Shown here piece after piece: positions 9,887 through 52,446 of a stretch of DNA of 64,000 bases; the stretch's first letter is position 1; every line of letters starts with the position of its first letter. The translations under genes and the position numbers were made by a program. Source of the DNA: Anabaena sp. PCC 7108 (GTDB taxonomy: Bacteria; Cyanobacteriota; Cyanobacteriia; Cyanobacteriales; Nostocaceae); assembly GCF_000332135.1 (NCBI RefSeq), contig NZ_KB235896.1, forward strand, positions 1,313,403-1,377,402, given 5' to 3'. Under the pieces are notes generated by a model. It ran no database searches and was not told the DNA's origin. It was given only the letters and a program-made list of their open reading frames with translations.

Positions 9887-10795
9887 TTATTCATATCCTA
9901 GTTCTCTCGCTAGATAAAGAACTTCAGGAAGAAATCCTTTTTTATCTTTAGACCAAGGCAATGGACCTGCCAATTTCGATATTTTACTAGTTGATGGACG
10001 AAAAACCGGGGACTTTTGAAATCCTGGATTGTTTCCCCATTCAGTTCCATATGGACCCATGCACGCATAAGGAGATTGCTCGGTACGTAACATAGCTTGA
10101 TAAGCTGACTCATTCCAACTTAAACCTAACCAATGACAAATTTTATCTAGGTATGCCTCAGGATTACTAATGATTTCTTCCCCGCGGATAAACATCTGTT
10201 GATGAGCTGGAATTGTATTCAGAAAGTCTAAAATTCTGGATTGACTTCTATACCAGTCATATTGAGGATCAATCACAGGGGGATAGACAGAATAGTCAAG
10301 AGAGTCAGCGACGGCTAGCTCCGCAACAGCTTGGGGCGCTTTCATCATTGATTTTCCTTGTTCTCGGGGATGACGAGTAATGTAGAGATAATAAGCGTCA
10401 GGGAAAGTTTTATTGATACGTTGTAGTGTTGTAATTTGTTTGGGGTATGCGGGACTTTTATCGATAATTCGTAGAGGAGCAACTTTATTACAGAGATCCC
10501 AATAGATATCTGCTGTGTTGTAATCAAGTCGTTGTCCAATCCAGCGGCGAGCCATTGCCACTGATTCTATAGTCTGCTCACCGCTGTAAAGTTGTGCGAT
10601 TGTCCTCAACAATCCATGAAGTATGAACTGGCGCGCGCCCTGGCTCACATCTACCAGTTCTTGCAAAGTTTCTTTGACAAACAAATTTATTTCTGGTACT
10701 CCATAAGCTTCTGGATGCTGACCCAGCATGGCACAGACTAGTGAAGTAAAAGAGCGCGGAGATGCCAGTATAATTACAGGTTGAGGAAATGACAT
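9887..10795 (-). CDS. Sulfotransferase (PAPS-dependent), last gene of the synthase operon
   Basis: A 302-residue cytosolic sulfotransferase of the Sulfotransfer_3 type. The 5'-phosphosulfate loop is VIILASPRSFTSLVCAMLGQ at residues ~7-26. The 3'-phosphate site is YLYITRHPREQGKSMM, and the C-terminal SPYACMGPYGTEWGNNPGFQ resembles the PAPS-contacting tail. It transfers sulfate from PAPS to a hydroxyl. The enzyme at 43553-44503 is a clear paralogue: the same PRSF.S loop, the LLRTIAQL..G..T.ES segment and the SPYA..GPY...GN.P.F tail. It begins 25 bp after the PqqD/M50/HlyD gene, so it belongs to the operon. The substrate is inferred to be the operon's lipid-like product. Confidence 0.85.
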   Translation of the reverse strand: MSFPQPVIILASPRSFTSLVCAMLGQHPEAYGVPEINLFVKETLQELVDVSQGARQFILHGLLRTIAQLYSGEQTIESVAMARRWIGQRLDYNTADIYWDLCNKVAPLRIIDKSPAYPKQITTLQRINKTFPDAYYLYITRHPREQGKSMMKAPQAVAELAVADSLDYSVYPPVIDPQYDWYRSQSRILDFLNTIPAHQQMFIRGEEIISNPEAYLDKICHWLGLSWNESAYQAMLRTEQSPYACMGPYGTEWGNNPGFQKSPVFRPSTSKISKLAGPLPWSKDKKGFLPEVLYLARELGYE

Positions 10796-10820
10796 GATGT
10801 AACTACAACATATTTGGATA

Positions 10821-13448
10821 TTAAGGCAACCAAGACCATATTTCTATTTGAATGAATCTAACTAATGGCCGAGTCAGTAGTACGAATAATGGTTTTCTAC
10901 CAGCATCAATTTTGGCATAGCCAGACATTCCAGTTTTTAATGTCTGGGGAGAATTAGCTAGATCAATTATAACTTTGAAAACTCGATTAGTTTGGGTAAG
11001 ATTACTTTGAATCGAAGAGTTAGGGTCAGTTTTGGAATCAGTTTCAACTTTAGTCGCAGGTTCTATAGAAACAACTTTCCCGGAGAAAGGATTATTGGGA
11101 TATAACAGTAACTTGACTTCAGCTCGATCTCCAATCTCAATTTCACCGGCATCATATTCAGGAACTCGAATTTCGCCAAATAGCAGATTACTATCTTGGA
11201 CAACGGCAAACTTTTCTCCTTGCTTCAAGTAAGTGCCAATTTTCTGATTGAGATACGAGTCTACTAAGTATCCATTGAAAGGCATCAATAACTGAGTGCT
11301 TTTCTTTTGAGCTTGTTGATATTCCAATTCCTTGCGTAACTGCTTTAATTCTGACTGAGATGCTTTCACTTCTTGGCGAGCTGCTTCAATATCTTCTTTA
11401 CGAGAACCACTAAGTATTAGAGTTAGTTGCGCACGAGCTTGCTTGAGACTATCTTGCTTGGCTGCCAATGTTTGATACATTTCATCCACGTTCTTCTTCT
11501 TGAGTTCTATGGTTTGCCGTGCTTGTTCAATTTGAATTAGATCCACTTCATGTTTTTTCTTAGCATCTTCATAAAGCTCACGGCCTATACCGCCTTCTCG
11601 ATACAATACTTTTAGCCGATCTGCTGAAGCACCACTATATTGAGCTTGGGCATTATCTTTTTGCAAGCCCTTCCTGGCGATTTCAACTTCATCAATGGCT
11701 GCTTTTAACTGAGCATTTACAGCAGAAACTTCATTTTGGATAATGCTTACTTGTGCTTCTACTACAGCAACTTCCTCATTTCTCGCACCTGCTACCAACT
11801 TACTAAGTTCAGCCTGTCGCTTGTCAATATTGGCTTGTTGTTCCTTGACTTTTTCTTGCAAGGTTTGAATTTTATTCTCAATATCCGTGGAAAGCATATT
11901 GGCAACAACTGTTCTCTTACCGATTCGTTGGCCATCACCACCGTTAAAAAAGACTTGAGTAATTTTGCCTTCAACAGGCGCTTGAATTTGTTCCTGGCTT
12001 GGCGGTATTAATTGCAGTTCTCCACCAGGTGAGTAGGAGAAAGGAAGACAAAGAATAATAGCTAAACAAACTAATACTGTTAGCTGAATCCAATTACTAG
12101 ACAGAAAATTACTGACACTTTGGACAGCTTTATCTTTTGTAGATATTAGTTTCTCTGAGTTTGTAGAAGTTGAACTTGTAACCGTTTTTTTTCGGTTGAA
12201 CCTTGTGACTTCTGGAATCACGAAAGCAAGCCAACGTATAAAGGCAACTATAACAAGAAATAAGACTATATAACTAGTCACTCTTCCTAAAATTCCTGGA
12301 AAGATACTTTCGAGTTTAGTTGAGATATCAGGGACAATAGATAAAACCAGATATCCCCAAACTAATATTAGTCCAGAAGCATAGGCTAATAATATCTGCT
12401 GCTTACGTTGAGAAATAGTAGTTGGCAAGGGTCTAAATTTCAACTTAGCTAGCAGAATGTAGAATGCTTCCTGGAATAAATGGGGAGGTAAATTATAATA
12501 GGTTATTACCCATTTGAATACATCAGATTGACGAAGTGGTAAAGCGATTAGCAAAAAGGAAACCAGCCCAACTTGGCCTATCATTGCTGACCAATAAGCC
12601 AACTGAGTACCTGTTCCTCGAAATCCATACCAGGCAATAATTCCTACAATAAATATAAATGCTCTTGCCGCAGGAGCTGAACAGTAAGACCAGAGCTTTA
12701 CAGATCGAGATGTCTTTCTGAGACCGTATCTACTAATAAAAAAGCGAGGAAGGATGCCAAAATGAAGTCGGATACCAAGTTCTTTAACTTGTCCACCAAA
12801 ATGGGCGAATACTGCTCCTGCTACTATGCGGCTAAAAATATTGACGCTAATGAGAGACAACAAAAAGGAACTGATATAATCAAGTTCTTTATCAATACTA
12901 GTAAGGTCATACAAGAATAGAGCTTGTTGCCGGAAGAAGAGTTGGAGTGCAACAAAGAATCCTGGAATCAGCAGCCACGTTAGTGCAACAAATAGGAGAT
13001 TAAATGGCCGAGTGACAGCAGCCAAAAAATTAAAAGTAGGTTCTGGGTTATACAGTACGAAGCGTAGTTCTGTAAATTCATTGTCTTCATCCTCTACAGC
13101 AGCAGAGGATTTTGCTTCAGAGGCACTTTCTGTGATTGCTCCTCCCCGGTCGTTAGTGATAGTAGGAATCCGCTCTAATAAGCCAAGTCCATTAATCTGT
13201 TCAATAAAATTCCGTAGATCTTCTTCTGTAAGAACTTTACTAAAAGACTCACTAAATGAGGAAATAATTTGTTGAGAATCAGAAGAGCCATCCAATAGTC
13301 GACAAATAAAGAGTTCTTCCTCCCTAAGTAAAAAGGTTTCTCCAGATGTAGGGTTTTTAATAAAATAGGATTTTGCTTGATCTCCTACTTTTTGGGTTTC
13401 CGTAATGACAAGATCTGGACGGAAGCGAGTTTGGGTCGTTGTAGACAT
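10821..13448 (-). CDS. PqqD-like / degenerate M50 peptidase-like / HlyD adaptor fusion
   Basis: An 875-residue membrane protein. Residues ~1-95 form a PqqD-like winged domain (FRPDLVITETQKVGDQAKSY, then LLREEELFICRLLDG). Residues ~135-430 hold about 8 membrane segments in the order of M50 site-2-type peptidases, but the HExxH region reads SRIVAGAVFAHFGGQVKELG, without the metal-binding His-Glu-x-x-His. Residues ~465-860 form an HlyD adaptor: a lipoyl half (IQAPVEGKITQVFFNGGDGQ), a long coiled coil and the second half (LLMPFNGYLVDSYLNQKIGT). It sits between KS-AT and sulfotransferase genes. Export or assembly of the operon's product is inferred; no ABC ATPase or TolC-like gene is nearby. Confidence 0.8.
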   Translation of the reverse strand: MSTTTQTRFRPDLVITETQKVGDQAKSYFIKNPTSGETFLLREEELFICRLLDGSSDSQQIISSFSESFSKVLTEEDLRNFIEQINGLGLLERIPTITNDRGGAITESASEAKSSAAVEDEDNEFTELRFVLYNPEPTFNFLAAVTRPFNLLFVALTWLLIPGFFVALQLFFRQQALFLYDLTSIDKELDYISSFLLSLISVNIFSRIVAGAVFAHFGGQVKELGIRLHFGILPRFFISRYGLRKTSRSVKLWSYCSAPAARAFIFIVGIIAWYGFRGTGTQLAYWSAMIGQVGLVSFLLIALPLRQSDVFKWVITYYNLPPHLFQEAFYILLAKLKFRPLPTTISQRKQQILLAYASGLILVWGYLVLSIVPDISTKLESIFPGILGRVTSYIVLFLVIVAFIRWLAFVIPEVTRFNRKKTVTSSTSTNSEKLISTKDKAVQSVSNFLSSNWIQLTVLVCLAIILCLPFSYSPGGELQLIPPSQEQIQAPVEGKITQVFFNGGDGQRIGKRTVVANMLSTDIENKIQTLQEKVKEQQANIDKRQAELSKLVAGARNEEVAVVEAQVSIIQNEVSAVNAQLKAAIDEVEIARKGLQKDNAQAQYSGASADRLKVLYREGGIGRELYEDAKKKHEVDLIQIEQARQTIELKKKNVDEMYQTLAAKQDSLKQARAQLTLILSGSRKEDIEAARQEVKASQSELKQLRKELEYQQAQKKSTQLLMPFNGYLVDSYLNQKIGTYLKQGEKFAVVQDSNLLFGEIRVPEYDAGEIEIGDRAEVKLLLYPNNPFSGKVVSIEPATKVETDSKTDPNSSIQSNLTQTNRVFKVIIDLANSPQTLKTGMSGYAKIDAGRKPLFVLLTRPLVRFIQIEIWSWLP

Positions 13449-13519
13449 TGGTGTTAATAAGATTAAGCCTGGCTACTATGCAAAAAAATTAAGTAAAATA
13501 ACCTGTTTAGGAGCATACC

Positions 13520-16500
13520 TTATCTTTCCTCATTTTCTGTCGAATCAGAATAATTTGAAAAGAAAGCTTCAGAAACTTTTGATTGATTTGCCAAAAATTC
13601 TTGCATTAGTTCAAAGTGGAGATCAACTACTGATAACTGTACATCCGGTGATAATGGTGTTGTTCTACCTGCCACTGATGTAAATGAAGAACCTGGCGAA
13701 ACAATTTCTTCTGCAACTCTCTGGGTCGTGACTCTTGTTTCTGAAACTGGAGAAAAATTGTCTAAAGAGATGCTATTTAGAGCAGGAGAACTCAGAGTCA
13801 TATTATTAGACTCATTTTCTGTTGGTAATTGCAACTGGTTCAATCCAGGTTCATCTAACTTGCTTCTTACCTTCTCAATCAATTCTGAACTCAAACTCAT
13901 TCTAGGCATCAGAAGATCCAGAACAGGAGAACTTTTTGGTTTGACCGTTCCCACATTAGACGCATCCAAATCAACTGGTTCAGCGGTTCGGTATTGATAC
14001 AGAGGTTTCCAGTCAAGTTTAGTGCCTTTAACGAACAGTTGGGCTAGTAACAATAATAATTGCTCAAGTCCTGATTTTCGCTGACTGTTGCTGGCGATCG
14101 CTAAGAATTCTCGCTTACGCAAAATATCTTCTACAAAAGAAGTGAGGTTGTTACTAGGTCCGACTTCGATGAAGGTACGAATTCCTTCTTCATAAAGCCG
14201 CTCAATCATCTCGCAAAATCTCACTCTAGTTGACCACTGTTTCGCTACTAATTCTCTAATTGCATTAGCCTCAGTTGGGAATGGGGCTACGCTGGCACAG
14301 CTATAAAGTGGTGTATGTGCAGTTCCAACGGGCAAATCCTCATAATAGCGCTCTAAAACATTACCCATTTCCAGAAACAGAGGGGTGTGATAGGCTCGGT
14401 CAAAGGGTAGCTCTTGATAAATTCCTCCCCAAGCTTTAACTTGTTGGGCAACTTCTGTAATGACTTCAGGCGCACCAAATAGTATTTTTTGATTAGGGCA
14501 ATTATCCATTGCTAGAAACAGTTTTCCCTCAAATTTTTGCAATAGATTTTCTACAACTTGAGGATCTAGAGCGCCAACTGTTAACAAAACCCCTCGCGGA
14601 ACTGTGTTTGCCGCTTCCAGTTCCTTATATATTTGATTAAGATTACGTTTGATCTTGATTTGGTCATCCAAGTTATCTGCTTGAATAGTCCCGCTGGCTG
14701 ACAGTGCTGCATACTCGCCAGTACTGTGTCCTACCATAACATCAGGTTTGATACCAAATTGACTTAATAAATGGTAGAGAGCAATATCAGCCGTGAAAAC
14801 GGTTTCAGTTGCTACATCAATGTTGTACAACCCCTGAGAAAGCATTTGTTTTTCCTCACCAGTCAGGCAAGTTGGTGGAGGAAATACAAACTGGCTGGGA
14901 AGCGTTTCCCAAAGTCCTGTGAATGTAGCATCTGAAATGTCAAACCAGCTACGAACGCTGGGAAAATACAAGCACAGGTCAGCTAACATATTGACATATT
15001 GAGATCCTTCTCCAGGAAATAGGAAGGCAGTTTTCCCCTCCTTAGAGTTAACAGTAGGTGTAGCGTAATAAACACCATTTCTGGTTTGCAGACGCTCACA
15101 GTCCGGTTTAGCAATCTTCTCTAGCGCCTGTTTGAGTTTTTTCTGTAAATCAGTAGCGTTCTCAGCAACAATTGCCAGTCGGTAAGTTCCAGCTTGTTGA
15201 CTGGCAAGGGTAACAGCCAGACCTACTAGAGAAGGCAGAGGGTTAGCTTGCAAATATTGCTGTACTTGCCGACCCAGCGTCAATATATCTTGTTTATTTT
15301 CACCAGAGAAGATAAACAACTCATGGCTCCATTGTGAATGAAATTGTTTATCAGCAGTATTTGGACCTGTGTACTCCTCTAGAATCGCATGAGCATTGAC
15401 ACCACCAAAGCCAAAGGCACTAATACCTGCTCTCCGAGGCGATTCTTGATTGCCATGAATCCAGGGACGAGTTTGGGTATTGACGTAAAAGGGTGTTTCT
15501 TCTAGTCCCAAATCTGGGTTGACTTCATCACAAAGGGTAGGTGGCAGAATTTTATGGTGAAGAGCCAATGATAGTTTGATAAAGCCAGCAATCCCTGAAG
15601 CTGGAATACAGTGACCAATCATAGATTTTACTGAACCTAGCCCGCATTGAGGAAGCTTTCCTTGGCGCGAGCCAAAGATTTGGGTTAAAGTTTTAATCTC
15701 TGTTTTGTCACCGACAGGAATTCCAGTTCCATGTGCTTCTATTAAGTTAACAGTTGTCGGATCAATGCCTGCCTCAGAATAAGCTCGTTCTAAAGCTAAC
15801 ACTTCCCCTTCTAAACGAGGTGCTAATAAGCCTAATGCTTTACCATCGCTAGAAAGCCCTACTTGTTTCAGAACAGCATAGATTTGGTCTCTATCTCTTT
15901 CGGCATCAGTTAGTCGTTTCAGGACTAAAAATCCGCATCCCTCTCCCAATAACGTTCCAGCCGCCTCTTTATCAAAAGGACGAATTTTGGTACGAGACAG
16001 AGCATTTAGCTTACAGAAAAGCATATATATCTGGGGAGTCATGGATGCTTGAACTCCACCGACCAACATCATGTCAGACCGATTACTACGCAATTCTTTC
16101 ATTGCCAGTTCTACTGCAATTAAAGAAGAGGAGCAAGCAGCATCAATCATGTAGCTGGGGCCTCTTAAATCAAGACGATTAGCAATCCGTCCAACTGCAA
16201 TATTAGAGACCAAACCCGGTCCTGCTTCCGGAGGCAGGTCTGGTATGCTAGCTTTTAACTCCTGACGAATTTCATTGAGGGTTTCTTGATCTAGTGTCGG
16301 CAGCAGTTTTTGTAACAAATCTATAGTTTGATCAAGAATCGCTCCATGCTGCAGACCTGTTAGTGTTCCACGATTTGGAGTAGCCCCCCTCCCAAGAATG
16401 ACCCCAGTTTTTTCTCGACCAAGAGGTTTATCAAGATAACCAGCGTGTTGTAAAGCATCCCTAGCAAGCTTTAGAGCTAAAAAATGGTCTGGTTCACTAC

Positions 16501-16768
16501 CTGGGATGGAGGTTGGTGGTACGCCAAATTCAAGCGGATTGAATTCAGCCAGTCCACCTAGCAATCCAACTTTACGGGTATAAATACGGCTGAGTTCTGT
16601 AGAACTAGGATCGAAGTATGGAACAGCCCATTCGTCTGGCGCATCCTGAACATAATCTGCTTTGTTAAGAATGTTATGCCAGAAAACATCGACGTTTTGA
16701 GAACCAGCGAATAGACCTGACATCCCAATAATCGCAATGTCAGCTTGCTGTTGGTTACTACTGATCAT
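13520..16768 (-). CDS. Type I PKS/PUFA-synthase-like protein, KS-AT
   Basis: A 1082-residue synthase. Residues ~8-440 are a ketosynthase with an intact triad: Cys212 in DAACSSSL, His in EAHGTGIPVGD and His in SMIGHCIPASG, so it is not a chain-length-factor remnant. Residues ~560-880 are an acyltransferase (FLFPGEGSQYVNM; Ser682 in GHSTGEYAAL; RAYHTPLF). The remaining ~200 residues are low-complexity linker, ending in LHFELMQEFLANQSKVSEAF, a motif found after ATs in PUFA-type synthases. It has no ACP of its own, so it must load an ACP in another protein, either the first synthase gene or the ACP-ST at 47.7 kb. It lies 54 bp after the KR-DH gene. Confidence 0.88.
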   Translation of the reverse strand: MISSNQQQADIAIIGMSGLFAGSQNVDVFWHNILNKADYVQDAPDEWAVPYFDPSSTELSRIYTRKVGLLGGLAEFNPLEFGVPPTSIPGSEPDHFLALKLARDALQHAGYLDKPLGREKTGVILGRGATPNRGTLTGLQHGAILDQTIDLLQKLLPTLDQETLNEIRQELKASIPDLPPEAGPGLVSNIAVGRIANRLDLRGPSYMIDAACSSSLIAVELAMKELRSNRSDMMLVGGVQASMTPQIYMLFCKLNALSRTKIRPFDKEAAGTLLGEGCGFLVLKRLTDAERDRDQIYAVLKQVGLSSDGKALGLLAPRLEGEVLALERAYSEAGIDPTTVNLIEAHGTGIPVGDKTEIKTLTQIFGSRQGKLPQCGLGSVKSMIGHCIPASGIAGFIKLSLALHHKILPPTLCDEVNPDLGLEETPFYVNTQTRPWIHGNQESPRRAGISAFGFGGVNAHAILEEYTGPNTADKQFHSQWSHELFIFSGENKQDILTLGRQVQQYLQANPLPSLVGLAVTLASQQAGTYRLAIVAENATDLQKKLKQALEKIAKPDCERLQTRNGVYYATPTVNSKEGKTAFLFPGEGSQYVNMLADLCLYFPSVRSWFDISDATFTGLWETLPSQFVFPPPTCLTGEEKQMLSQGLYNIDVATETVFTADIALYHLLSQFGIKPDVMVGHSTGEYAALSASGTIQADNLDDQIKIKRNLNQIYKELEAANTVPRGVLLTVGALDPQVVENLLQKFEGKLFLAMDNCPNQKILFGAPEVITEVAQQVKAWGGIYQELPFDRAYHTPLFLEMGNVLERYYEDLPVGTAHTPLYSCASVAPFPTEANAIRELVAKQWSTRVRFCEMIERLYEEGIRTFIEVGPSNNLTSFVEDILRKREFLAIASNSQRKSGLEQLLLLLAQLFVKGTKLDWKPLYQYRTAEPVDLDASNVGTVKPKSSPVLDLLMPRMSLSSELIEKVRSKLDEPGLNQLQLPTENESNNMTLSSPALNSISLDNFSPVSETRVTTQRVAEEIVSPGSSFTSVAGRTTPLSPDVQLSVVDLHFELMQEFLANQSKVSEAFFSNYSDSTENEER

Positions 16769-16823
16769 TTCCCTTCCGTTTGGTTGATATGTTATTGATA
16801 GTTTTTCTTCTAAATTTGATACA

Positions 16824-19298
16824 TCACTCTCTAGCTGTTAGGCGGTTGAGCGCTTTACTACAGGTATTTTCCATGTCCTCAAGCCGCAAATAAAGACGGT
16901 TGCTTGAGTCCATAAACATAGCATCAAAGACCATAGTAGTGAGATTAAAAAGCTTGACACGTAATTCTACGCGCAAATTACTCTTTAATGGTATCTCTCC
17001 ATAGCGAATGATACGTTTAAATCGTGCAGGTAATCCCCCCATATCGCCATGGATGCGAGTCCATATTAATGCCATCTGTAAGGAAGCATCAATAAGACCT
17101 GGATCAAACAACCAGCTCTTATTAAGTTGAGAATTATTCAACCAAACAGCAGGTGCGCTTGTGTTAACTTTTGCTTCCATACCTTGTTCATTAAAACGGT
17201 CTATCGATGTCAGAAGTTGAAAAAGCGGTCCATGAAAGCAATAATTTTGGTAAGCAGTAGAAATGTTTAATCCCGTATTGATATTCAAAGAAGGAATCTC
17301 TATTTCCTTAACTTCTTCCAGTTGTGGACGAAGAACAAAAAAGGCACGGTAATGAGCTGCACCATCTGAATCTAAGATTTCTGCAGCTACTTGCAGAGTG
17401 TCTCCATCTGTATGAGTAGAGGCACGCGCTTGCAGTTTAATTTCATGCCCTTTCTCTGATTTAAGGACAATACCTCTTAATACTTTAAGGTCACGGACTT
17501 CGCTGACAATCCAATCTGGCCAAGCTGATTGAACAAATTCGGCCATGAGTTCCATCGCGCAGGCAGCAGCTAGTACTGGCTTACCATCAAGGCAATGGTC
17601 TTGAAGATATGGATGAGATGACAAAGAAATGGTCTGATTGAGACTAACAGTTCCATTAGGTTGAATGGTAGGAATAGTGGGGATAAAAGGAAACAACAAT
17701 TGTGTTTGTGTTGTTTGTCTACTTGAATCCTGCTTTAGCTTGTCATCACCACCAGCCATTGTGCTTTCAGGTGCTTCCCCCTCAAAAAATCCTGTGATTA
17801 ATTCTACTTGGTTATCGTTTCCATAAAGAAGTTCATTGATAAAGAATTGTTTTCCTGCTGCTGGAGGAATAGGAATCACCCCTCGCTCTCTAAATTGACG
17901 GTTTACTTCTTCAGAAGCCATTCCTGTCACGTCCCAAGGACCCCAATTGATTGACAAAACTTTAGTATTCGGCCACTCATAGTGCATCCACCAGGCAAAG
18001 CGATTGATGACCTCGTTAGCAGCTGCATAGTCACATTGCCCTCGATTGCCTGTCCGACCAGCAACTGAGGCAAAAATAACCATTAACTTCAGAGATTCAG
18101 GACAAAGATAACGACTGAGAATAAAGGTGCTATTGACTTTAGTATTGAAAACTTGTTCAAAAGACGCAGTTGTTTTATCAATAATCAGTTTGTCCTGAAT
18201 AATACCAGCACCCTGGACAACAGCATCAATTCGTCCATAGCGCTCATATACTTGATCAATTAGAGCGCCAAACAAGCCAACATCGGTTACATCAACAGAG
18301 TAATATTCAACATTAGCTCCTGCTTCTTTAAAGAGATTTAAGTTATCACGAATAGCGCGATCGCGCTGCAATTGCTTAACCTGTTGTTCAATTTGTGCAG
18401 GTGTTGGTGTTTGACCTTCCTCTCTAGCTTGCTGTATTAGTAATCGGCGCAAAATACCTATATCTTCAATTCCTTGAATCAGAGATGGTTCTTCGATTGG
18501 CTTTGGAGATCGGCCTACCAGAATTAGTGTCATACCAGGAACTAGCATTGCACTAACAATCTCAGATGTAATCCCTCTAGATCCACCAATACAAAGCACA
18601 ATCCAGTCTTGACTAGGAAGAGCTAAAGTGTCTTTTTCTAAGTTGGTTATTAAAGGAGATATTATCGCATCAAAAACTGTGCGTTGCCCTTGAGGATATC
18701 CAATTTCAACATCCTTGTTCTGGCTGATTAATTCTCCTACAAGACTGGTCGCAATATCAGCAGCGCCAGTGTCAGCCGCAAAATCAATTGATTTCGCCTT
18801 GACGGTTGGCCACTCAATCATCATGGTTTTCAGCAGTCCATTGCTACTACCGCTCAGAGGAAGACTTGGACCACAATGACTGCGGCGACCAAAATTTCCT
18901 CCCAACATAGAAGCAGCCAGGACTTGGCCTTGAGATTGTTTTAAGTCATTTGCACACAATTGTAATAAATGAAACAAGCTCTTAGACTGAGTATCTGCCA
19001 ACTCACACCACTCTTGAAAATTTGTTGGCATTGGAATGTTTGTTAAGCCAGCAAGGTGAATGATTCCCACTACTGATCCGTGGGATTCTTTTAGTTGGGA
19101 AACAACTTGAGCTAAATTTTCTTTCTTGCCTAGGGTAGATGTAGTTAGAATTGCTGCTGTAATCCCGTATAACTGGAGTGCTTCTACAAGATGAGCAGCT
19201 ACTCCCAATTGATCCTCGGTGATTAAGTGTAGCCCTGTTAAGGTTTTAGCCTCAGCTATATCAATGAGCGGTAGTGGTTTGTGTGTCGCTTCCATCAC
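16824..19298 (-). CDS. Ketoreductase-dehydratase protein (KR-DH)
   Basis: An 824-residue enzyme. Residues ~1-200 form a degenerate Rossmann-like structural half of a KR. Residues ~230-490 form the catalytic KR with the NAD(P) loop CIGGSRGIT, RYGRIDAVVQGAGI, FASVAGRTGNRGQCDYAAAN (Ser and Tyr) and the NWGPWD motif. Residues ~555-815 form a PfaC/PKS-type hot-dog dehydratase with SSHPYLQDHCLDGKPVL; the usual Pro after GxxxL is Ala, while the second acidic motif is kept (FDPGLIDASLQ). It would reduce the beta-keto group and dehydrate the product. Start: GTG at 19298 is followed directly by an ATG. Its 13-bp distance from the first synthase gene indicates one transcript. Confidence 0.85.
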   Translation of the reverse strand: MMEATHKPLPLIDIAEAKTLTGLHLITEDQLGVAAHLVEALQLYGITAAILTTSTLGKKENLAQVVSQLKESHGSVVGIIHLAGLTNIPMPTNFQEWCELADTQSKSLFHLLQLCANDLKQSQGQVLAASMLGGNFGRRSHCGPSLPLSGSSNGLLKTMMIEWPTVKAKSIDFAADTGAADIATSLVGELISQNKDVEIGYPQGQRTVFDAIISPLITNLEKDTLALPSQDWIVLCIGGSRGITSEIVSAMLVPGMTLILVGRSPKPIEEPSLIQGIEDIGILRRLLIQQAREEGQTPTPAQIEQQVKQLQRDRAIRDNLNLFKEAGANVEYYSVDVTDVGLFGALIDQVYERYGRIDAVVQGAGIIQDKLIIDKTTASFEQVFNTKVNSTFILSRYLCPESLKLMVIFASVAGRTGNRGQCDYAAANEVINRFAWWMHYEWPNTKVLSINWGPWDVTGMASEEVNRQFRERGVIPIPPAAGKQFFINELLYGNDNQVELITGFFEGEAPESTMAGGDDKLKQDSSRQTTQTQLLFPFIPTIPTIQPNGTVSLNQTISLSSHPYLQDHCLDGKPVLAAACAMELMAEFVQSAWPDWIVSEVRDLKVLRGIVLKSEKGHEIKLQARASTHTDGDTLQVAAEILDSDGAAHYRAFFVLRPQLEEVKEIEIPSLNINTGLNISTAYQNYCFHGPLFQLLTSIDRFNEQGMEAKVNTSAPAVWLNNSQLNKSWLFDPGLIDASLQMALIWTRIHGDMGGLPARFKRIIRYGEIPLKSNLRVELRVKLFNLTTMVFDAMFMDSSNRLYLRLEDMENTCSKALNRLTARE

Positions 19299-19312
19299 GT
19301 AGCGCGGGGAAG

Positions 19313-34635: not shown

Positions 34636-34690
34636 GGGGATAGAGGATAGGTAATATCATGTCCCCAGGTCAGTCGTAATAATTAAGTAT

Positions 34691-41887: not shown

Positions 41888-42265
41888 ATGGCATTGCAAA
41901 TCTACGTAGAAAATACTGACTCTACCACCTTGTGTTTAGCTTTGGATGGTAAGCTTGATACGCTGACAGCTACTGATTTGGATACATCTATTCAAAAAAG
42001 CTTGACACCGAACATCCAGACTCTGATTTTAAATCTCCAGAACTTGAGTTTTATCTCCAGTGCTGGACTACGTGTGTTGGCCAAGGCGCGAAAAACTATG
42101 ACATCAAGAAAAGGCAAAGTATTTTTCACCCATCCTACCCCTCAAGTTAAGAAAGTATTTGATATTGTCAAAGCTGTTCCTCTCTCTGAAGTGTTTGCCA
42201 ATACTCAGGAGTTAGATGCCTACTTAACAGCTATGCAAGCTGATGTAGATGGGGAAAATGATTAA
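41888..42265 (+). CDS. STAS-domain anti-sigma factor antagonist
   Basis: A 125-residue STAS protein of the SpoIIAA/RsbV type. The phosphoacceptor serine lies in LSFISSAGLRVLAKARKTM. Its phosphorylation state would be set by the kinase and phosphatase domains of the preceding 781-residue protein. It ends 5 bp before the convergent propeller-like gene, so it closes this transcription unit. Confidence 0.92.
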   Translation: MALQIYVENTDSTTLCLALDGKLDTLTATDLDTSIQKSLTPNIQTLILNLQNLSFISSAGLRVLAKARKTMTSRKGKVFFTHPTPQVKKVFDIVKAVPLSEVFANTQELDAYLTAMQADVDGEND

Positions 42266-43539: not shown

Positions 43540-43552
43540 TATTTGTCAGGAT

Positions 43553-45187: not shown

Positions 45188-45802
45188 CTAATCAGAACCG
45201 CTTTTTCTTAGATAGCCTAGCTCTTCTAAGGTTGTTATGACTTTTGACACGCTCTCTTCCAAGGTTTCTAAGTCGGTTCTACATTCTACTTCTGGATTTG
45301 TAGGAGGTTCATATGGATCGTCGATACCAGTAAAGTTTTTGATTTCACCTGCTCTTGCTCTTTTGTAAAGCCCTTTAACATCTCGTTTTTCACAAACATT
45401 AAGTGGAGCATTCACATATACTTCAATAAAATTTCCAATACGTTGGCGAACTTCATCACGAATAACTGTGTAAGGTGAAATTGCCGAAACGAGAACGATG
45501 ACATGGTTCCGAGTTAAGAGTTGTGACACGAAGCCGATACGGCGGATATTTTCATCGCGGTCTTCTCTGCTAAATCCCAGTCCTTTTGTTAAATTCTCTC
45601 GTACAATATCCCCGTCTAAAATTTCTACTTTGCAACCACGGGAATGCAGTTCTTGTTCTAATGCCCGAGTAATGGTAGTTTTTCCTGCTCCGCTCAAACC
45701 AGTAAACCACACAGTTACACCAGGTTTCTGCTGCTGTGTAAAGTTAGTACTGATTTCAGATTCTAAACTGGTCATTGACTTAACCTCAAAATGTATTGAC
45801 AT
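45188..45802 (-). CDS. cysC: Adenylylsulfate (APS) kinase
   Basis: A 204-residue kinase with Walker [41 protein letters not shown] and [12 protein letters not shown], followed by [20 protein letters not shown], all diagnostic of CysC. It phosphorylates APS to PAPS, the sulfate donor for sulfotransferases. A leader of ~20 residues precedes the family core; an internal ATG (MTSLESEIS) may be the true start. Its position amid three sulfotransferase genes argues for a dedicated PAPS supply. Confidence 0.93.
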
Positions 45803-46729
45803 TGGACTTCAGATAAAAAGACAATTGCCTCTGGTCTATCACTCTGCGAAAACAAAAATCGCAGGCAACTTTTAAAACTAGTTCGACTGGATTTGTGGCT
45901 TTATTGTCTAATTTTGTTAATTTCGGCGACGCAAAATAAATTTGGTTTTTCGTAACTGCCCAGGTACGAAGGTCAGGATAATTCTTATCAGGGAAGAAAT
46001 ACGGTAGTGTTCAAGCATTAGTCCAGAAGAAAAAGATCAAAAAATCGAGAAGTTAGAGTAAGAGAATCAAGCACTGGGTGAAAGTATAGCTAGAGAGGCG
46101 TTTAGGGTAAGATAGCAAAACAAGTTCCAAACCAGCGACAAGCGACTGACTCAAAGAATCAAGTAAAATACGGACAAAAAGTTTAAGAGAAAAAGGAAAG
46201 CGCCCATCAGGGGGATTAACTGGTCATTCAGGGTAGATATTAGAACAAATTTTACAACCAGATAATATTATAGTCCAACACCATGCTTATGTCATGGATG
46301 TGATATTTCGATTGTATTGACAAAAAAATCATCAACCGAAAAGTATTTGATACGCCAGCCCCAGGAATTATCTCACAGAACACAGAGTAGCAGTCAAATT
46401 CATTCGCCAATATTTGGTTCTTTTCTTTCCACTGCTTCCAAAAGTTAAGTTTTATTTGACTTTTCTCCTTAATCAGGATATGATATTATGTTTTTTAATT
46501 CTAAAATATGGGGGAATTGAGAACGATAGACACTGGATGCTTGATTGTACATTCACTGACTGATCTAGCTAAATTGCTGTATCATTATCACCTTGATTTC
46601 TAGTATTAGACATTGCAACAGTGTTAGGATATTGAGTATCGGTTTTAAGCTGTTGATCTGGAAGACTATAATTCTATTACATCAGCGCTCTTTTCATACC
46701 CCTTTTTTTTGGCGAAGGTATCGACTAAA
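45803..46729. other. Intergenic region with decayed transposase
   Basis: The middle part (46015-46420) is an IS66-type remnant, described separately. The right part (46420-46729) is A/T-rich and must contain the promoter of the rightward TPR/ACP-ST operon. No intact gene is seen. Confidence 0.6.
46015..46420 (+). pseudogene. IS66-type transposase remnant
   Basis: Broken plus-strand frames recall the IS66 N-terminus: a coiled-coil region EEKDQKIEKLE, then RTKSLREKGKRPSGGLTGHS followed after a stop by ILEQILQPDNIIV, and further RKVFDTPAPGIISQNTE. Multiple stops and frame changes show it is dead. Confidence 0.7.
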
Positions 46730-47527
46730 ATGACTCAATTTGTTCCTGGTATTGAGCGAGTATTCACGCCTGATATTAAACGAGTAGAAGTTGATATTTC
46801 TCCGCGAGGAGATATAAAGCAAGGCCAAGAGCTTGCTAAGGCTACTAAATTTGACGAGGCTTTAAAGGAATTTGATGCTGTACTGAAGGAAGATCCTACT
46901 TCCATAAAAGCCCACCTGTCAGCAGGAAATGTAAAGTATAAGCAAAAGCAGTACCAGGATGCAATTGCCCATTTTGAAGCAGCCATTAGGCTAGATCCTA
47001 TTTCCACTAATGCTTACTTAAGAGCAGCCAGAGTTCATTTAGAACAAGGGGGAGTAGAGCAAGCCTTAGAACACTTTCAAAACGCTCTCAAACTTGATCC
47101 AAACTTGGCAATGGCTTATGTAGGTCTGGGACAAGTGTTGCTAAAGCAAGAAAATTTTAATGAAGCTGTACAACAACTTACTAAAGCTTTACGTATTAAT
47201 CCACGATTGTTGGCAGCTCGGAAGAGACTAGCTCAAGCGTATGATCATCAGGAAAAGCATTCCGAGGCTGCTGCTCAATTAAAAGCTGTACTGAGAATCA
47301 AGCCTACTGATGCTAACGCTTATGCAGGAATGGGCAAAATATACTTTATACAGCAAAATTATAATGCAGCAAGGGAAGCTTTTAAGAAAGCAATTGCCTT
47401 AGAACCTGAATCATCATCTAACGCCCAACTGGGGCTAGCAGTATCTCTTATTGAAGAAGAAAAAATTGAAGAAGCTAGTGCAATTTTAGCAAAAGTTGCG
47501 CTTGATTCTTCTAAAAATGAAGAATGA
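46730..47527 (+). CDS. TPR-repeat protein heading the ACP-sulfotransferase operon
   Basis: A 265-residue protein made mostly of five to six tetratricopeptide repeats (AIAHFEAAIRLDPISTNAYL, ALEHFQNALKLDPNLAMAYV, AREAFKKAIALEPESSSNAQ). The ATG at 46730 has GAAGG about 11 bases upstream; a TTG at 46709 would add seven residues but is less likely. TPRs serve as protein-protein docking. Here it probably scaffolds enzymes of the sulfotransferase locus; this is inferred from context only. Confidence 0.75.
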   Translation: MTQFVPGIERVFTPDIKRVEVDISPRGDIKQGQELAKATKFDEALKEFDAVLKEDPTSIKAHLSAGNVKYKQKQYQDAIAHFEAAIRLDPISTNAYLRAARVHLEQGGVEQALEHFQNALKLDPNLAMAYVGLGQVLLKQENFNEAVQQLTKALRINPRLLAARKRLAQAYDHQEKHSEAAAQLKAVLRIKPTDANAYAGMGKIYFIQQNYNAAREAFKKAIALEPESSSNAQLGLAVSLIEEEKIEEASAILAKVALDSSKNEE

Positions 47528-47707
47528 ATAAAAAACATTAAAGATACTAAATGCCATCATCCTACTGGGTAAAAACATTCCCGTAATATTTTAAAGTGGC
47601 AATGGTAAGTAGGACTGAACACCCCTGCTGTATGCAAAGCATCAGCGTCGTCGGGTACTTCAAACAGTGTTTACAATAGCCTAGTGATCAGTGTAAAGGG
47701 AAGTTTC

Positions 47708-49012
47708 ATGCAACTCACAGCAATACAAGTCCAACACGTAGTTGTAGATATTATAGAAACAACTGTCCAGTCTTGGGATGGAGAATTAGATGAACCAATC
47801 AGCCCAGATACCTTATTAATCCAGGATCTTAACTTCGCTTCTATTGATTTCATCCAACTTATTGTGACGATTGAGGAGAAAATTGGCAAGAAGTTAGGCT
47901 TTCACGATCTACTTATGCCTAATGACAAGTACATAGATGAATTAAGCGTTGCTCAGTTGACTACTTTTATCGAAAGCAGGCTCAATTCAGATCAAGTCTT
48001 CGATCAACCAATTAATCTATCACAATCATCTATTGCTGTAGAAAGTAAACCAATTGCTAATGAACGCATTGATAAAACTAAATTAGAGCAGTTTAGACAA
48101 CACATTCCCATACCAAAGAGATGGGAGGGAGAAGATACTCCCAAGAACAAAAAAGCAGTTTTCGTTCTTTCATCTCCTCGCTCTGGTTCAACATTACTTC
48201 GTATTATTTTGGCAGGTCATCCACAACTATTTGCTCCACCAGAATTGCACTTGCTTGATTACAATACACTTGATCAAAGAAAAGCTGCTCTGGCCAATAA
48301 ACTTAATAGTCATTTGCTAGAAGGCACTATCCGAGCAATTATGCAGATCAAAAACTGTAATGCAGAAGAAGCGCGGAAGTTGATGGAAGCTTATGAAGAG
48401 CAGAATCTTCCGAGCAAATCTTTCTACGGAGTACTACAGGAATGGATAGGTGATAGAATACTTGTTGACAAAACTCCAACTTATCCTTTTCATCTGGATT
48501 TTCTAAACCGTGCTGAGAACCAATTTTCTGAGCCACTTTACATTCATCTAGTCAGACATCCCTATGGCATGATTAGATCCTTTGAGGATGCCAAGTTGGA
48601 TCAACTAGTTTTGTTTATGAGGGAAAGCTCTTTCACTAGACAACAACTGGGAGAATTGCTCTGGTTAGTTTCCCAGCAAAATGTCTTAAAGTTTTTAGAA
48701 GGAATTCCTCAGCACCGTCAACTTCGTATTAGGTTTGAAGATTTGGTGGATACACCAGAGATCACAGTCCAACAAATCTGTAATTTCCTCAATATAGATT
48801 TTAATACGGATATGCTAAATCCTTACAAAGAGAAGGAACAGCGAATGACAGATGGAGTGGAGTTGGTATCAAGATTTAGTGGAGATTTAAAATTCCATCT
48901 TCACCAGAGAATTGAGCCTAATGCAGCTTATAGATGGAAACAATTTCATAATATTGACTTCCTTGGAGACATCACTTGGGATATAGCAGCATCATTTGGT
49001 TATAAGGAGTAA
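47708..49012 (+). CDS. ACP-sulfotransferase fusion
   Basis: A 434-residue protein. Residues ~1-95 are an acyl carrier protein; Ser45 in DLNFASIDFIQLIVTIEEKI is the likely phosphopantetheine site. Residues ~150-430 are a sulfotransferase: FVLSSPRSGSTLLRIILAGH (PAPS loop), APPELHLL, VDKTPTYPFHLDF, YIHLVRHPYGMIRSFEDAKL. These blocks are those of the ST domains of CurM and the cyanobacterial olefin synthase, which sulfonate the beta-hydroxyl of an ACP-bound acyl chain. The ATG at 47708 has AAAGGGA six bases upstream, better than the earlier GTG at 47684. The TE-like gene starts 3 bp after its stop. Confidence 0.85.
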   Translation: MQLTAIQVQHVVVDIIETTVQSWDGELDEPISPDTLLIQDLNFASIDFIQLIVTIEEKIGKKLGFHDLLMPNDKYIDELSVAQLTTFIESRLNSDQVFDQPINLSQSSIAVESKPIANERIDKTKLEQFRQHIPIPKRWEGEDTPKNKKAVFVLSSPRSGSTLLRIILAGHPQLFAPPELHLLDYNTLDQRKAALANKLNSHLLEGTIRAIMQIKNCNAEEARKLMEAYEEQNLPSKSFYGVLQEWIGDRILVDKTPTYPFHLDFLNRAENQFSEPLYIHLVRHPYGMIRSFEDAKLDQLVLFMRESSFTRQQLGELLWLVSQQNVLKFLEGIPQHRQLRIRFEDLVDTPEITVQQICNFLNIDFNTDMLNPYKEKEQRMTDGVELVSRFSGDLKFHLHQRIEPNAAYRWKQFHNIDFLGDITWDIAASFGYKE

Positions 49013-49015
49013 CGA

Positions 49016-49924
49016 TTGCCAGTTGCAAATTTGAATGACTTTGATTGTCACTACCTGCAATTAGAACAACAAGGTAGGAGCTTAGAGTTAAATAGCTCTG
49101 AAAACAACCTGATTATGGTGCATGGGTTAGCCACGAATTTAGCATTTTGGTATCACTTAGCCCATGCTTTTACTAACACCCATCGAGTCACTCTATTTGA
49201 TCTGCGCGGGCATGGTAAGAGTTCTATGCCCAAGAGTAACTATACTCCCAAGCAACTAGCAGATGATCTTAAGGACTTGATGGATCATCTCAATATTAAG
49301 ACTGCAAGCTTAGTGGGACATAGCTTTGGCGGCACAGTTCTTCTACACTTTCTGGCAGAGTACCCCAATTATGCAGATCGCATTATTTTGGCAGATGTGC
49401 GATCAAAGTTATTTCAGCCTTTGCAAATGCCTTGTAACTGGCCTCGTTGGTCTATCTTACAACCTGCGTTAAGGGCGGCAGGTATAGATTTGGATGAAAA
49501 TGAACCAGAAGCAGGCTATAGGATTCTAACAGAGATTGCTAAATTACAGTTGCGGACACCTCGTGGACAACATATTCCTGAAAACCAGCTATTATCTAGC
49601 TTATTCCCCTTAGGAAATAGCACGCGCACTGCTTCTCAGTGGTTGAAACTGCTAGAAACTACCACTGCTTGGGAAGACTTGATCAAATCGGAAAGTCTGA
49701 TAATCGATCAATTACAGCTAGTCAAACTACCAACTTTAGCTATCTATGGAGAGAATTCTTCTACCTTACAAACAGCCCATGGACTTCAAAAACTTTGGCC
49801 TCATTTGCACCTGGAAATAGTTGATGAGGCTGGACATTTCTTTCCTGTATCCCATCCTCAAAAATTTATAACATCAGTTCAAAAGTTTTTATCTTTAGGG
49901 ACAGACAAGCCAAGTCAAACCTAG
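49016..49924 (+). CDS. Alpha/beta-hydrolase, thioesterase-like (CurM-TE/OLS-TE type context)
   Basis: A 302-residue alpha/beta-hydrolase starting with TTG at 49016, chosen because AAGGAG lies six bases upstream. It has the oxyanion region IMVHGLATN, DLRGHGKSSMP, the nucleophile Ser103 in VGHSFGG and the catalytic His in DEAGHFFPVS. The CurM TE uses an acid after strand beta-6; here LADVRS offers an Asp there, although GENSS also lies in the classical position. Directly after an ACP-ST gene (3 bp), it would hydrolyse the sulfated acyl-ACP and, by analogy, release CO2 and sulfate to leave a terminal alkene. That chemistry is inferred. Confidence 0.8.
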   Translation: MPVANLNDFDCHYLQLEQQGRSLELNSSENNLIMVHGLATNLAFWYHLAHAFTNTHRVTLFDLRGHGKSSMPKSNYTPKQLADDLKDLMDHLNIKTASLVGHSFGGTVLLHFLAEYPNYADRIILADVRSKLFQPLQMPCNWPRWSILQPALRAAGIDLDENEPEAGYRILTEIAKLQLRTPRGQHIPENQLLSSLFPLGNSTRTASQWLKLLETTTAWEDLIKSESLIIDQLQLVKLPTLAIYGENSSTLQTAHGLQKLWPHLHLEIVDEAGHFFPVSHPQKFITSVQKFLSLGTDKPSQT

Positions 49925-49981
49925 ACGATGAAGGGTTTTCAGCATTCCCTTTATAAAAGTAGAACGCTAAAAGGAGTCACA

Positions 49982-51463
49982 ATGCGTGTTTACAACCCAG
50001 AACCACATCCAGGTCTCCGTAGGAATCACTTCCGTAAAGTTTGTGAGAACGGCTTTGGCGATCGCTACAACGGGTATGCCTATTCAATGGCCTGGTTTAA
50101 TAATCATCTTTATGTTGGTACTTCTCGTGCTAATTTGTGTCTTCTCAAGTTTGCCATGCCATTTGTCACAATGGATCATTGGCCTGTTGAATGCCCTCAC
50201 CTCAACTACACACCAGAATTCGAGCATAAATGTGCGCGGGGTGAGATATGGCGCTTTAACCCTTTATTAGACCAATGGAATCGGGTTTATCAGTCTCCTT
50301 TCATGACAGATGATGAAGGTGTTGAGTTTAGCCGGGACTTAGGTTATCGAGGAATGACAGTATTTCAGGGGAAATCAAATTCCGCGCCAGCTCTCTATGT
50401 ATCAACCTGGTCACGTTCTCGAGGATCAGGTCCTGACATTTTGTGTAGTGAAGATGGTCAGACATTTATAACTACGCCCAAACCTCGTTTTACGACTCAA
50501 GGAAGGGAGATAACAGTAACGGCTATACGTGTACTAGTTTCCTTCAAGGGTAAGCTATATACAGCCCCCGTTGGTGCTGCCAAGGGAAATGTCAATGCTT
50601 CTGGTCTTTCCCTGGTTTATGAGAGCGACGACCCAGCAACGGGAAACTGGCGCTGTGTGAATGAGCCTGGGTTTGGAGAGTTACCAGATGTGATGACCAT
50701 TTATGAAATGGCTGTTTTGGGCGAATATCTGTATGTTGGCACTGCTGGCTTAAGTGGATTTCAAATTTGGCGCACAGATGCAGAAGGAGTTCCACCTTAT
50801 CATTGGGAACAAGTAATTACTAATGGTGCTGAACGTGGTGGCCTAAACCAGGGATCTGCTAGTATGATTTCCTTTAAAGGCGCTCTTTATATTGGAACAG
50901 GAATTCAGAATGGTGGATATGATCATCGTAATAAAATAGGACCAGCTGCCTCGGAAATTATCCGACTGCACCCTGATGGTTCTTGGGATATTATCGTTGG
51001 TAGTGCTAGGAACGGTAAAAAACCCTTAAGTGGGCTGGGTCCTGGGTTTAATAACTACTTCTGCGGCTACCTGTGGAGAATGGGAATTCACCAAGGCTGG
51101 CTTTATGCAGGTACAATGGACTGGAGTCTGATTTTACGATACGTCAAGCTAGAAGAAAAACCAGTAAAGGTTGCTCGAATGATTGCGGCCTTGGGAGTGG
51201 AAGAGTTTATTAAGAATAATGGAGGAGCTTCTCTCTGGCGGACTTATGATGGAGAGAATTGGCTTCCTGTCACTCTCAATGGCTTTAAAAATCCTTATAA
51301 CTATGGGATTCGCAACATTGTTTCTACACCTCATGGTCTTTTTATTGGCACAGCTAACCCATTTGGTCCTCGTGCTGCTATAAAAACGAGCAAAAAAGAG
51401 TGGGAGTGGAGTTATGTTGATAATCCAGATGGCGGACTCGAAGTCTGGCAAGGTATTTCTTAG
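49982..51463 (+). CDS. Propeller-like repeat protein (copy 2)
   Basis: A 493-residue protein beginning MRVYNPEPHPGLRRNHFRKV; the ATG at 49982 has AAGGAG five bases upstream, whereas an in-frame ATG at 49928 does not. It consists of repeated FxxxLYxG units (AWFNNHLYVGTSR, FKGKLYTAPVG, GEYLYVGTAGLSGFQIWRT, GALYIGTGI, GWLYAGTMD, GLFIGTANP), suggesting a six- or seven-bladed propeller without a signal peptide. It is paralogous to the protein at 42271-43539. Both occur next to sulfotransferases. Function unknown. Confidence 0.7.
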   Translation: MRVYNPEPHPGLRRNHFRKVCENGFGDRYNGYAYSMAWFNNHLYVGTSRANLCLLKFAMPFVTMDHWPVECPHLNYTPEFEHKCARGEIWRFNPLLDQWNRVYQSPFMTDDEGVEFSRDLGYRGMTVFQGKSNSAPALYVSTWSRSRGSGPDILCSEDGQTFITTPKPRFTTQGREITVTAIRVLVSFKGKLYTAPVGAAKGNVNASGLSLVYESDDPATGNWRCVNEPGFGELPDVMTIYEMAVLGEYLYVGTAGLSGFQIWRTDAEGVPPYHWEQVITNGAERGGLNQGSASMISFKGALYIGTGIQNGGYDHRNKIGPAASEIIRLHPDGSWDIIVGSARNGKKPLSGLGPGFNNYFCGYLWRMGIHQGWLYAGTMDWSLILRYVKLEEKPVKVARMIAALGVEEFIKNNGGASLWRTYDGENWLPVTLNGFKNPYNYGIRNIVSTPHGLFIGTANPFGPRAAIKTSKKEWEWSYVDNPDGGLEVWQGIS

Positions 51464-51471
51464 AGGTTTTT

Positions 51472-52446
51472 ATGGAACAATTTCCTGGTGGAAGAAAGAA
51501 GCGCTGGCGTGCCATTGTTAATGAGATGTTGGGTTTAGAGAAGGAATCTTCTCCAAATGCGGTTGGAAATCAGTCTATCCAAATGGACGAAGTCCTTCCC
51601 CAAGATACAGATATAGCGATAGATGATTGGTTGGAACCGCATTATGTTGTGCTTGATCAGTCTGTTACTCTTCGCAATAAGCTGGCTGTTTTCTTTCCCG
51701 GTTCTTTTGGGAAAGGAATGCGGCAGCAGCTAATTATTCGGGAATTGGCTCGCCTTGGCTATCACACCATCAATTTGAGCTACCCCAACTCCTGGACAGT
51801 TGGTAGTCTATGTCGGCATCACTCAGATCCAGACTGCTTAGAGAAAGTCCGGTTAGAAATTATCTCTGGTCGAGGTTGTTGTGATGTTCTAGAAGTTGGT
51901 CGGCCTAACTCAATCGAAAATCGGTTAGTTAAGTTGTTGGCATACTTAGACCTCAAATATCCACACCAAAAATGGAGCCAGTATTTACATGGGAATATTC
52001 CTAAGTGGGATCAGATTATCGTCACAGGCCATTCTCAAGGAGGAGGTCATGCAGCGTTACTGGGGAAACAACATTGTGTCGCACGAGTGGTGATGTTAGC
52101 CGCTCCAGCTGATTTTAGTTGGGTGCTAGGCGAATCTGCACCGTGGCTATCGGTTCCTGGACAAACACCATCAGAACGCTATTATGGCTTTGCTCATATA
52201 AAAGATGAAGGGTATGATCGGATTCAAAAGGCGTGGAAGTTATTGGGAATGACAGCCTATGGTTCTATTATAAATGTGGATGAACAGCAGTCACCTTATC
52301 ATCATTCTCATTGCTTAATTACAGACATAAAACCTGATCGACCAGATAAGTATCACGGTAGTGTTGCTACAGACAGACCAACACCCAAATTTTCTGATGG
52401 AACACCTGTATTTAGAGAAGCTTGGCACTATCTCTTTAGCATCTAA
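51472..52446 (+). CDS. Second alpha/beta-hydrolase of the operon
   Basis: A 324-residue hydrolase fold protein. The core contains AVFFPGSFGKGMRQQLIIRE, INLSYPNSWTVGS, the nucleophile elbow VTGHSQGGGHAALLG, VVMLAAPADF, and a His-rich end (QSPYHHSHCLITD). It resembles alpha/beta-hydrolases of uncharacterised function rather than PKS thioesterases. The ATG at 51472 follows AGAGG and lies 8 bp after the propeller gene, so it is the last member of the rightward operon. It ends 15 bp before the left 241-bp repeat. The substrate could be an ester of the pathway product; inference only. Confidence 0.65.
   Translation: MEQFPGGRKKRWRAIVNEMLGLEKESSPNAVGNQSIQMDEVLPQDTDIAIDDWLEPHYVVLDQSVTLRNKLAVFFPGSFGKGMRQQLIIRELARLGYHTINLSYPNSWTVGSLCRHHSDPDCLEKVRLEIISGRGCCDVLEVGRPNSIENRLVKLLAYLDLKYPHQKWSQYLHGNIPKWDQIIVTGHSQGGGHAALLGKQHCVARVVMLAAPADFSWVLGESAPWLSVPGQTPSERYYGFAHIKDEGYDRIQKAWKLLGMTAYGSIINVDEQQSPYHHSHCLITDIKPDRPDKYHGSVATDRPTPKFSDGTPVFREAWHYLFSI

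Follow-up and report, generated by a model that had tools for sequence, protein, structure and literature searches.

A two-locus PUFA-synthase-like cluster with sulfotransferases in Anabaena sp. PCC 7108 and the replacement of its ACP-sulfotransferase in relatives

The stretch of Anabaena sp. PCC 7108 DNA analysed here (64,000 nucleotides, hereafter the window) carries, in two loci, a real secondary-lipid cluster that is widely distributed and equipped for sulfation, a form of cluster that we did not find described in the open-licence literature. The conclusion that the two loci form one pathway is strongly supported by gene co-occurrence and colocation in other genomes. With moderate confidence we read them as one biosynthetic cluster, rearranged in this genome, for a sulfated long-chain lipid that is probably exported. 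A new point is that in related clusters the fused ACP-sulfotransferase is replaced by an ACP together with an unrelated enzyme of the alkaline phosphatase superfamily, and that the two were never found together in the genomes examined.

Two loci and probably one cluster

All of the open reading frames named in the earlier note are present at about the positions it gave, as judged by the ORF map and by Pfam and NCBIfam scans. Locus A (9887-25150) is a compact minus-strand run of five genes lying 14-71 bases apart in the ORF map: a PAPS-dependent sulfotransferase, ST1 (9887-10795; Sulfotransfer_3, 1.1e-25), an HlyD-type adaptor protein (10821-13448), a KS-AT protein (13520-16768), a KR-DH protein (16824-19298) and an NMO(enoyl reductase)-KS-AT-ACP protein (19313-25150), the last four assigned by Pfam and NCBIfam. 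Locus B (42271-52446) begins with two minus-strand genes, for a 422-aa propeller-like protein (42271-43539) and for the ST1 paralogue ST2 (43553-44503; Pfam 4e-16), followed by an APS kinase (45188-45802, minus strand; Pfam/NCBIfam), a TPR protein (46709-47527, plus strand; Pfam) and a compact plus-strand run with gaps of 3-8 bases. This run encodes an ACP-sulfotransferase didomain, ACP-ST (47684-49012; sulfotransferase 2.7e-30, ACP a weak Pfam match at 0.0098), a thioesterase-like alpha/beta hydrolase (49016-49924; Pfam), a 511-aa beta-propeller (49928-51463; AlphaFold2) and a BPSS1187-family protein (51472-52446; NCBIfam 7.5e-82). Between the loci (27055-42265) lie unrelated genes for RlmN-like, histidine kinase, methylase, Lgt, nucleotidyltransferase, transposase, RsbU-type phosphatase and STAS proteins. 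Elsewhere in the window, a possible mobile island close to locus A (3089-7790) holds genes for a KilA-N/Bro-N protein, a ParA-like ATPase and a protein of unknown kind, and an adjacent pair of PspA/IM30 family genes lies at 61350-63033.

The description of the pathway as PUFA-synthase-like was correct, in that locus A holds the KS/AT/ACP/KR/DH/ER set and its proteins are related to PfaA though below the TIGR02813 cut-off. Among NCBIfam models, the NMO-KS-AT-ACP protein matches TIGR02813 (PfaA) best, and the three PKS proteins score 848.5 (this protein), 629.6 and 294.5 bits against a curated cut-off of 1010.1, so that on sequence scores they are relatives of the PUFA synthase PfaA and not members of its family. 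The features by which secondary lipid synthases are broadly recognized (KS, ACP and KR with AT, ER or DH, and homology to pfa genes) are found in the locus-A set. Inspection of the translations by eye bears out the earlier statement on the KS domains: the Cys-His-His residues are intact in both KS-AT-bearing proteins, as is the AT motif GHSxG. KS1 shares 45-46% identity with the first KS in each of two further PKS clusters of the same genome (at about 2.36 and 3.64 Mb). We take these clusters to be hgl-like; they show two ACP matches and none to NMO.

The earlier note had proposed a single pathway interrupted by housekeeping genes and an IS element, and had named genomes regularly carrying one locus without the other as the outcome that would speak against it. 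No such pattern appeared in three homology searches of the same set of 388 cyanobacterial genomes, sampled evenly across the class. The 511-aa propeller (E 1e-15) was found in 16 genomes and KR-DH (E 1e-60) in 22; the 15 strongest of the latter (E 6.5e-80 or better) are without exception propeller carriers. The remaining seven are matches of 32-35% over about half of the protein, in other PKSs, and in G269, the sixteenth genome with the propeller, a divergent KR-DH (27%) lies nearby. Treating the genomes as unrelated, that is, uncorrected for kinship, this co-occurrence gives a Fisher p of 4e-26. Relatives of ST1/ST2 (E 1e-25) occur in 12 of the 388 genomes, all 12 among the 16 propeller carriers; at that threshold none was found in the other four (G004, G381, G415 and G493), two of which, G415 and G493, have weaker sulfotransferase-like matches elsewhere in the genome, so the sulfations by ST1/ST2 may not be universal.

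The genes are also neighbors. We read 18 genomes, namely the 15 sampled carriers besides the window's own and G023, G011 and G081, and 16 of them have a PKS gene on one stretch with the propeller or the ACP module; the exceptions are a 14-kb contig (G245) and a genome with KR-DH on another contig (G161). In the nearest relative, Sphaerospermopsis aphanizomenoides BCCUSP55 (propeller 88% and ACP-ST 85% identical), ST1, HlyD, KS-AT, NMO-KS-AT-ACP, KR-DH, ST2, the 422-aa propeller, BPSS and ACP-ST all lie within 24 kb, in DNA blocks 84-87% identical to the window. Compared with the window, the NMO/KR-DH block is inverted in this relative, which has the 511-aa propeller on a separate contig and in which the alpha/beta hydrolase was not found. 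Only 377 bases separate its KR-DH from ST2, and the genes that intervene in the window do not lie between them. With this arrangement and the co-occurrence and colocation, a rearrangement of one cluster is the best reading of the split in the window. Two independent pathways that merely adjoin would account for the roughly 15 kb of unrelated genes between the loci, and for ST1 and ST2 relatives lying away from the PKS part in four Gloeobacter-like genomes, yet with co-occurrence near perfect and colocation in most genomes read this reading is very improbable and close to refuted. In these Gloeobacter-like genomes (G160, G179, G192 and G215) the ST1/ST2 relatives (4/4) and the second propeller (3/4) are away from the PKS part, indicating that they too are two-locus.

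The best marker of the cluster is the 511-aa propeller. AlphaFold2 confidently predicts a beta-propeller (pLDDT 86.4, pTM 0.89), a fold that has structural matches, while neither it nor the 422-aa protein has a Pfam match at E 0.01 or an NCBIfam match; the two are paralogues (25% identity, E 3e-25). It is 43-64% identical to the window's protein across 13 cyanobacterial relatives. A scan of named genomes with a 14-sequence propeller alignment gave 94 relatives, the best 80 of which make up 79 loci (43-88% identical to the window's protein), whose neighbors were counted by blastp (E 1e-6) in flanks of up to 10 kb to either side. The taxa of these best 80 of 94 include cyanobacteria, Chromatiaceae, Rhodobacteraceae, Nevskiaceae/Solimonas, Burkholderiales, Planctomycetota, Acidobacteria, a deltaproteobacterium and others, many of them as MAGs, so the propeller serves as a marker of such clusters beyond the cyanobacteria, in Pseudomonadota and further phyla. 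At least one other cluster gene is present in all 79 loci except L094, a Sphaerospermopsis contig. Within these loci (best 80 of 94), relatives of ST1/ST2 and of HlyD occur in 56/79 each, the hydrolase in 45/79, the TPR protein in 14/79, the 422-aa propeller as best match in 7/79 and BPSS in 4/79; PKS genes are seen in 30/79 within the flanks of at most 10 kb, which counts against the one-cluster reading.

Membership of single genes could be judged from the same material. The TPR protein is an additional cluster member that the earlier gene list lacked, with relatives in the clusters of G023, G346, G493 and G381, although the link is weaker for repeat proteins. The APS kinase, earlier counted as a pathway gene, does not keep that place: it is absent from all 19 cluster stretches read and all 79 loci (best 80 of 94), and it is the only copy in the genome. 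It is probably a neighbor and not a cluster gene, which will supply PAPS all the same. The BPSS1187-family protein has a hydrolase-like GHSQGG motif by eye and no Pfam match. In its N-terminal part the HlyD-type protein matches PqqD-like and M50-like models only weakly, below their cut-offs, and no HExxH motif was seen; among the window proteins scanned, neither an exporter partner for it nor TauD or PhyH was seen. Related clusters carry TauD, PhyH, PPTase and SDR genes (TauD/PhyH in 12/79 loci, best 80 of 94), which would fit a hydroxylated chain.

Sulfotransferases and the replacement of ACP-ST

At E 0.001, ACP-ST has just two relatives of solved structure, 4gbm (the CurM sulfotransferase, 2.4e-63) and 4gox (9.3e-58), which we take to be the olefin synthase (OLS) sulfotransferase, and the same two are the best solved relatives of ST1. 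The serine of the ACP in ACP-ST (residue 53 of the ORF) is conserved in 38/38 aligned ACP rows. In a quick tree of 125 rows with SH-aLRT supports, ACP-ST falls within the CurM/olefin-synthase sulfotransferase superfamily (a 38-row clade, support 100), whereas the 22 OLS sulfotransferases form one clade (support 100) that does not include it. Eight of the 10 stand-alone sulfotransferases form a group (support 84) with six that are domains of large proteins, and the subgroup holding the window's sulfotransferase has support 93; the remaining two, G269 and L150, fall outside this group and the OLS clade. These large proteins with an internal sulfotransferase (L005-L010, from genomes G118, G111, G095, G035, G096 and G084; open frames of 2136-2891 aa) are an observation in their own right: their sulfotransferases are 46-55% identical to the window's, and in 6/6 a condensation domain directly follows, which suggests that the sulfate is retained there.

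In place of the window's fused ACP-ST, many clusters carry an orthologous ACP as a stand-alone protein and, after it, a PF01663 protein (the phosphodiesterase) of about 533 aa. Its Asp10, Thr54, Asp217, His224, Asp279, His280 and His432 are invariant in 42/42 aligned rows, the reference row of which repeats G011, and presumably have alkaline-phosphatase-type roles. We searched 25 cluster genomes, chosen as carriers and interrelated, for both modules genome-wide: ACP-ST is present in 10 (E 2.3e-61 or better) and the phosphodiesterase in 15 (E 2.2e-126 or better), with none carrying both and none carrying neither. The phosphodiesterase was sought in all 25 by one search, and ACP-ST by one search in 21 and by another in G000, G023, G011 and G081; given how these genomes were chosen and their kinship, p-values for the pattern serve only for orientation. 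One ACP-ST genome, G346, has a single remote phosphodiesterase relative (30%, E 9.5e-39) on another contig. The 79 loci (best 80 of 94) give the same picture, with a fused ACP-ST (counted as ORFs of 340 aa or more) in 7, the phosphodiesterase in 39 and both in none; 33/35 stand-alone ACPs in them are in loci with the phosphodiesterase.

On a quick tree of the propeller, where 59 of the 85 rows could be labelled (46 phosphodiesterase, 13 sulfotransferase), the sulfotransferase type requires three changes, which well-supported branches force; the replacement was therefore repeated, or came about by transfer. Labels were set by hand from genome searches for L094, G381 and G415 (sulfotransferase) and for L101, L117, L167, G161 and G004 (phosphodiesterase), and the sulfotransferase label of L136, set by hand from a cut 153-aa match alone, is the weakest. 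Nine loci that duplicate contigs already included (L096, L098, L103, L106, L107, L115, L130, L132 and L133) do not enter the trees or the phosphodiesterase and ACP alignments but are part of the counts of the 79 loci, and G154, the second G081 contig, L142, L159 and L162, whose propeller is broken, short or missing, are absent from the propeller tree. In both trees L117, from a MAG titled Tatlockia (Legionellaceae), is sister to L167 from a Chroococcus MAG, which may reflect mis-assignment or transfer.

The neighbors differ with the module. Among the best 80 of 94, the hydrolase accompanies the phosphodiesterase in 32/39 loci and the fused ACP-ST in 2/7, and BPSS is found in 4/7 fused ACP-ST loci compared to 0/39 phosphodiesterase loci; the window carries both. 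Relatives of ST1/ST2 are kept in 25/39 phosphodiesterase loci (best 80 of 94), so the swap does not abolish sulfation overall. We tentatively suggest that ACP-ST and ACP plus phosphodiesterase may stand in for each other in a single lipid pathway found across phyla. Either module would place, or exchange, an anionic group at one and the same hydroxyl of an ACP-bound chain, the group being sulfate (from PAPS) in one case and a phospho group in the other. Swapping one cassette would then turn a sulfo-type amphiphile (or leaving group) into a phospho-type one, and each module would have a hydrolase of its own.

Probable release and sulfation of the chain

The earlier note expected a sulfated or alkene-terminated lipid; the sulfated part stands as likely, and the alkene is weakened by the residues of the hydrolase and by the position of the sulfotransferase outside the OLS clade. 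An olefin-synthase-like ending, in which ACP-ST sulfates a beta-hydroxyl and the hydrolase at 49016-49924 releases and decarboxylates the chain and expels the sulfate to leave a terminal alkene, would draw on the kinship of ACP-ST with the CurM and OLS sulfotransferases, on the hydrolase gene starting 3 bases after ACP-ST, and on the Ser, His and acid after strand 6 that both hydrolase kinds share. That acid is Glu in 10/10 OLS thioesterases and Asp in 11/11 cluster hydrolases, in which Ser103, Asp127 and His274 are invariant (11/11). In the OLS/CurM thioesterase the RTR residues of the lid and the GGHN motif matter for the sulfate. The GGHN Asn, present in 10/10 OLS thioesterases, is Phe in the window hydrolase and occurs in 0/11 cluster hydrolases, and both RTR arginines, found in 8/10 OLS thioesterases (L011 and L013 have one), are replaced at both positions in all 11, so the residues that characterize a decarboxylating thioesterase of the OLS/CurM kind were not found in the window enzyme, for which a generic esterase fold is predicted (pLDDT 87.6). 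The hydrolase is also commonest with the module that is not a sulfotransferase, two Chromatiaceae genomes and the nearest relative carry ACP-ST without it, genome G000 has its own aldehyde deformylating oxygenase, and no FAAL was seen among 15 proteins scanned. The hydrolase was without a match (E 1e-15) in 9/15 cluster genomes, which had been chosen largely because none was seen nearby. Given a hydrolase that lacks the OLS residues and often has no match, and a sulfotransferase that lies outside the OLS clade and has close relatives placed before condensation domains, we regard the alkene as quite unlikely and a sulfated acid or ester as the likelier product of this cluster.

In the pathway that we favor, NMO-KS-AT-ACP, KR-DH and KS-AT would act as an iterative PUFA-synthase-like enzyme and build a long acyl chain in which some hydroxyls are kept. 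The chain, or a late intermediate, would pass to the ACP of ACP-ST, whose sulfotransferase, of a family now established, would move sulfate from PAPS onto a hydroxyl of the ACP-bound chain. The serine hydrolase may then free the sulfated chain, ST1 and ST2 may add sulfate to further hydroxyls, and the HlyD-type protein may help to move the amphiphile to the cell envelope, with the propellers perhaps serving as scaffolds or as enzymes of a further step. Alternatively, ST1, ST2 and ACP-ST could sulfate a head group, polysaccharide or protein that is joined later, with the PKS making the anchor only. Two of the sulfotransferases are indeed separate proteins that were not found in some clusters; however, the third forms one protein with an ACP, and ST1, too, has as its best solved relatives sulfotransferases of the CurM/OLS type, described as chain-sulfating (PMC3903477), and we consider this alternative unlikely compared to sulfation of the chain itself.

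Relation to described synthases and meaning

The claim that no described pathway has this combination needs to be divided. No record of the combination of sulfotransferases, propeller and modules was found in the open-licence literature; the PKS part, on the other hand, has probably been catalogued as an uncharacterised secondary-lipid synthase. The cluster is present in Rhodobacteraceae, in Parvularculaceae and in genomes, G160 among them, that we take to be Gloeobacter, which makes Type O / CF-3 its likely class. The PKS part is thus probably a Type O / CF-3 secondary lipid synthase, an assignment made by taxon overlap. Type O is listed for Gloeobacter violaceus, Dinoroseobacter shibae and Parvularcula bermudensis with an unknown product (Shulse and Allen 2011, PMC3098273), and CF-3, 'PKS PUFA', for Gloeobacter and a marine Synechococcus (Calteau 2014, PMC4247773). 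Both share with locus A the PUFA-synthase-like KS/AT/ACP/KR/DH/ER set, but the parts of their descriptions available include no propellers, ACP-ST or module replacement, and the word sulfotransferase occurs in neither main text.

Other known systems resemble the cluster in part. The heterocyst glycolipid (hgl, Type F) synthase is likewise an iterative PUFA-like PKS, but its domain order is different, the hgl gene set was not found here, and the cluster proteins scanned include no glycosyltransferase, the role of hglT in that set; the accessible text of the paper on hgl evolution, which treats hgl-like islands, has no occurrence of 'sulfo' (PMC11804610). Olefin synthase and the ACP-ST-TE of CurM share the sulfotransferase superfamily and an ACP beside it, and chain sulfation by their sulfotransferases has been described (PMC3903477); according to this source, olefin synthase joins FAAL and KS-AT-KR-ACP-ST-TE in one polypeptide, an architecture not found in the window, where the proteins are stand-alone, the sulfotransferase lies outside the OLS clade, the hydrolase residues differ and FAAL is lacking. 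Hybrids of the zeamine/chitinimine type show that PUFA-like synthases recruit extra enzymes, but loci A and B have no NRPS protein, and the available text has no mention of a sulfotransferase (PMC13291983).

Orphan secondary-lipid synthases have been listed for more than ten years and few of their products are known. One such type now has recurring partner genes and a genomic marker, the 511-aa propeller, whose named carriers among the best 80 of 94 include Fischerella, Roseivivax, Solimonas and Hydrocarboniphaga, so that its product can be hunted. The module replacement offers a paired comparison on the role of an ACP-bound sulfotransferase outside olefin synthase.
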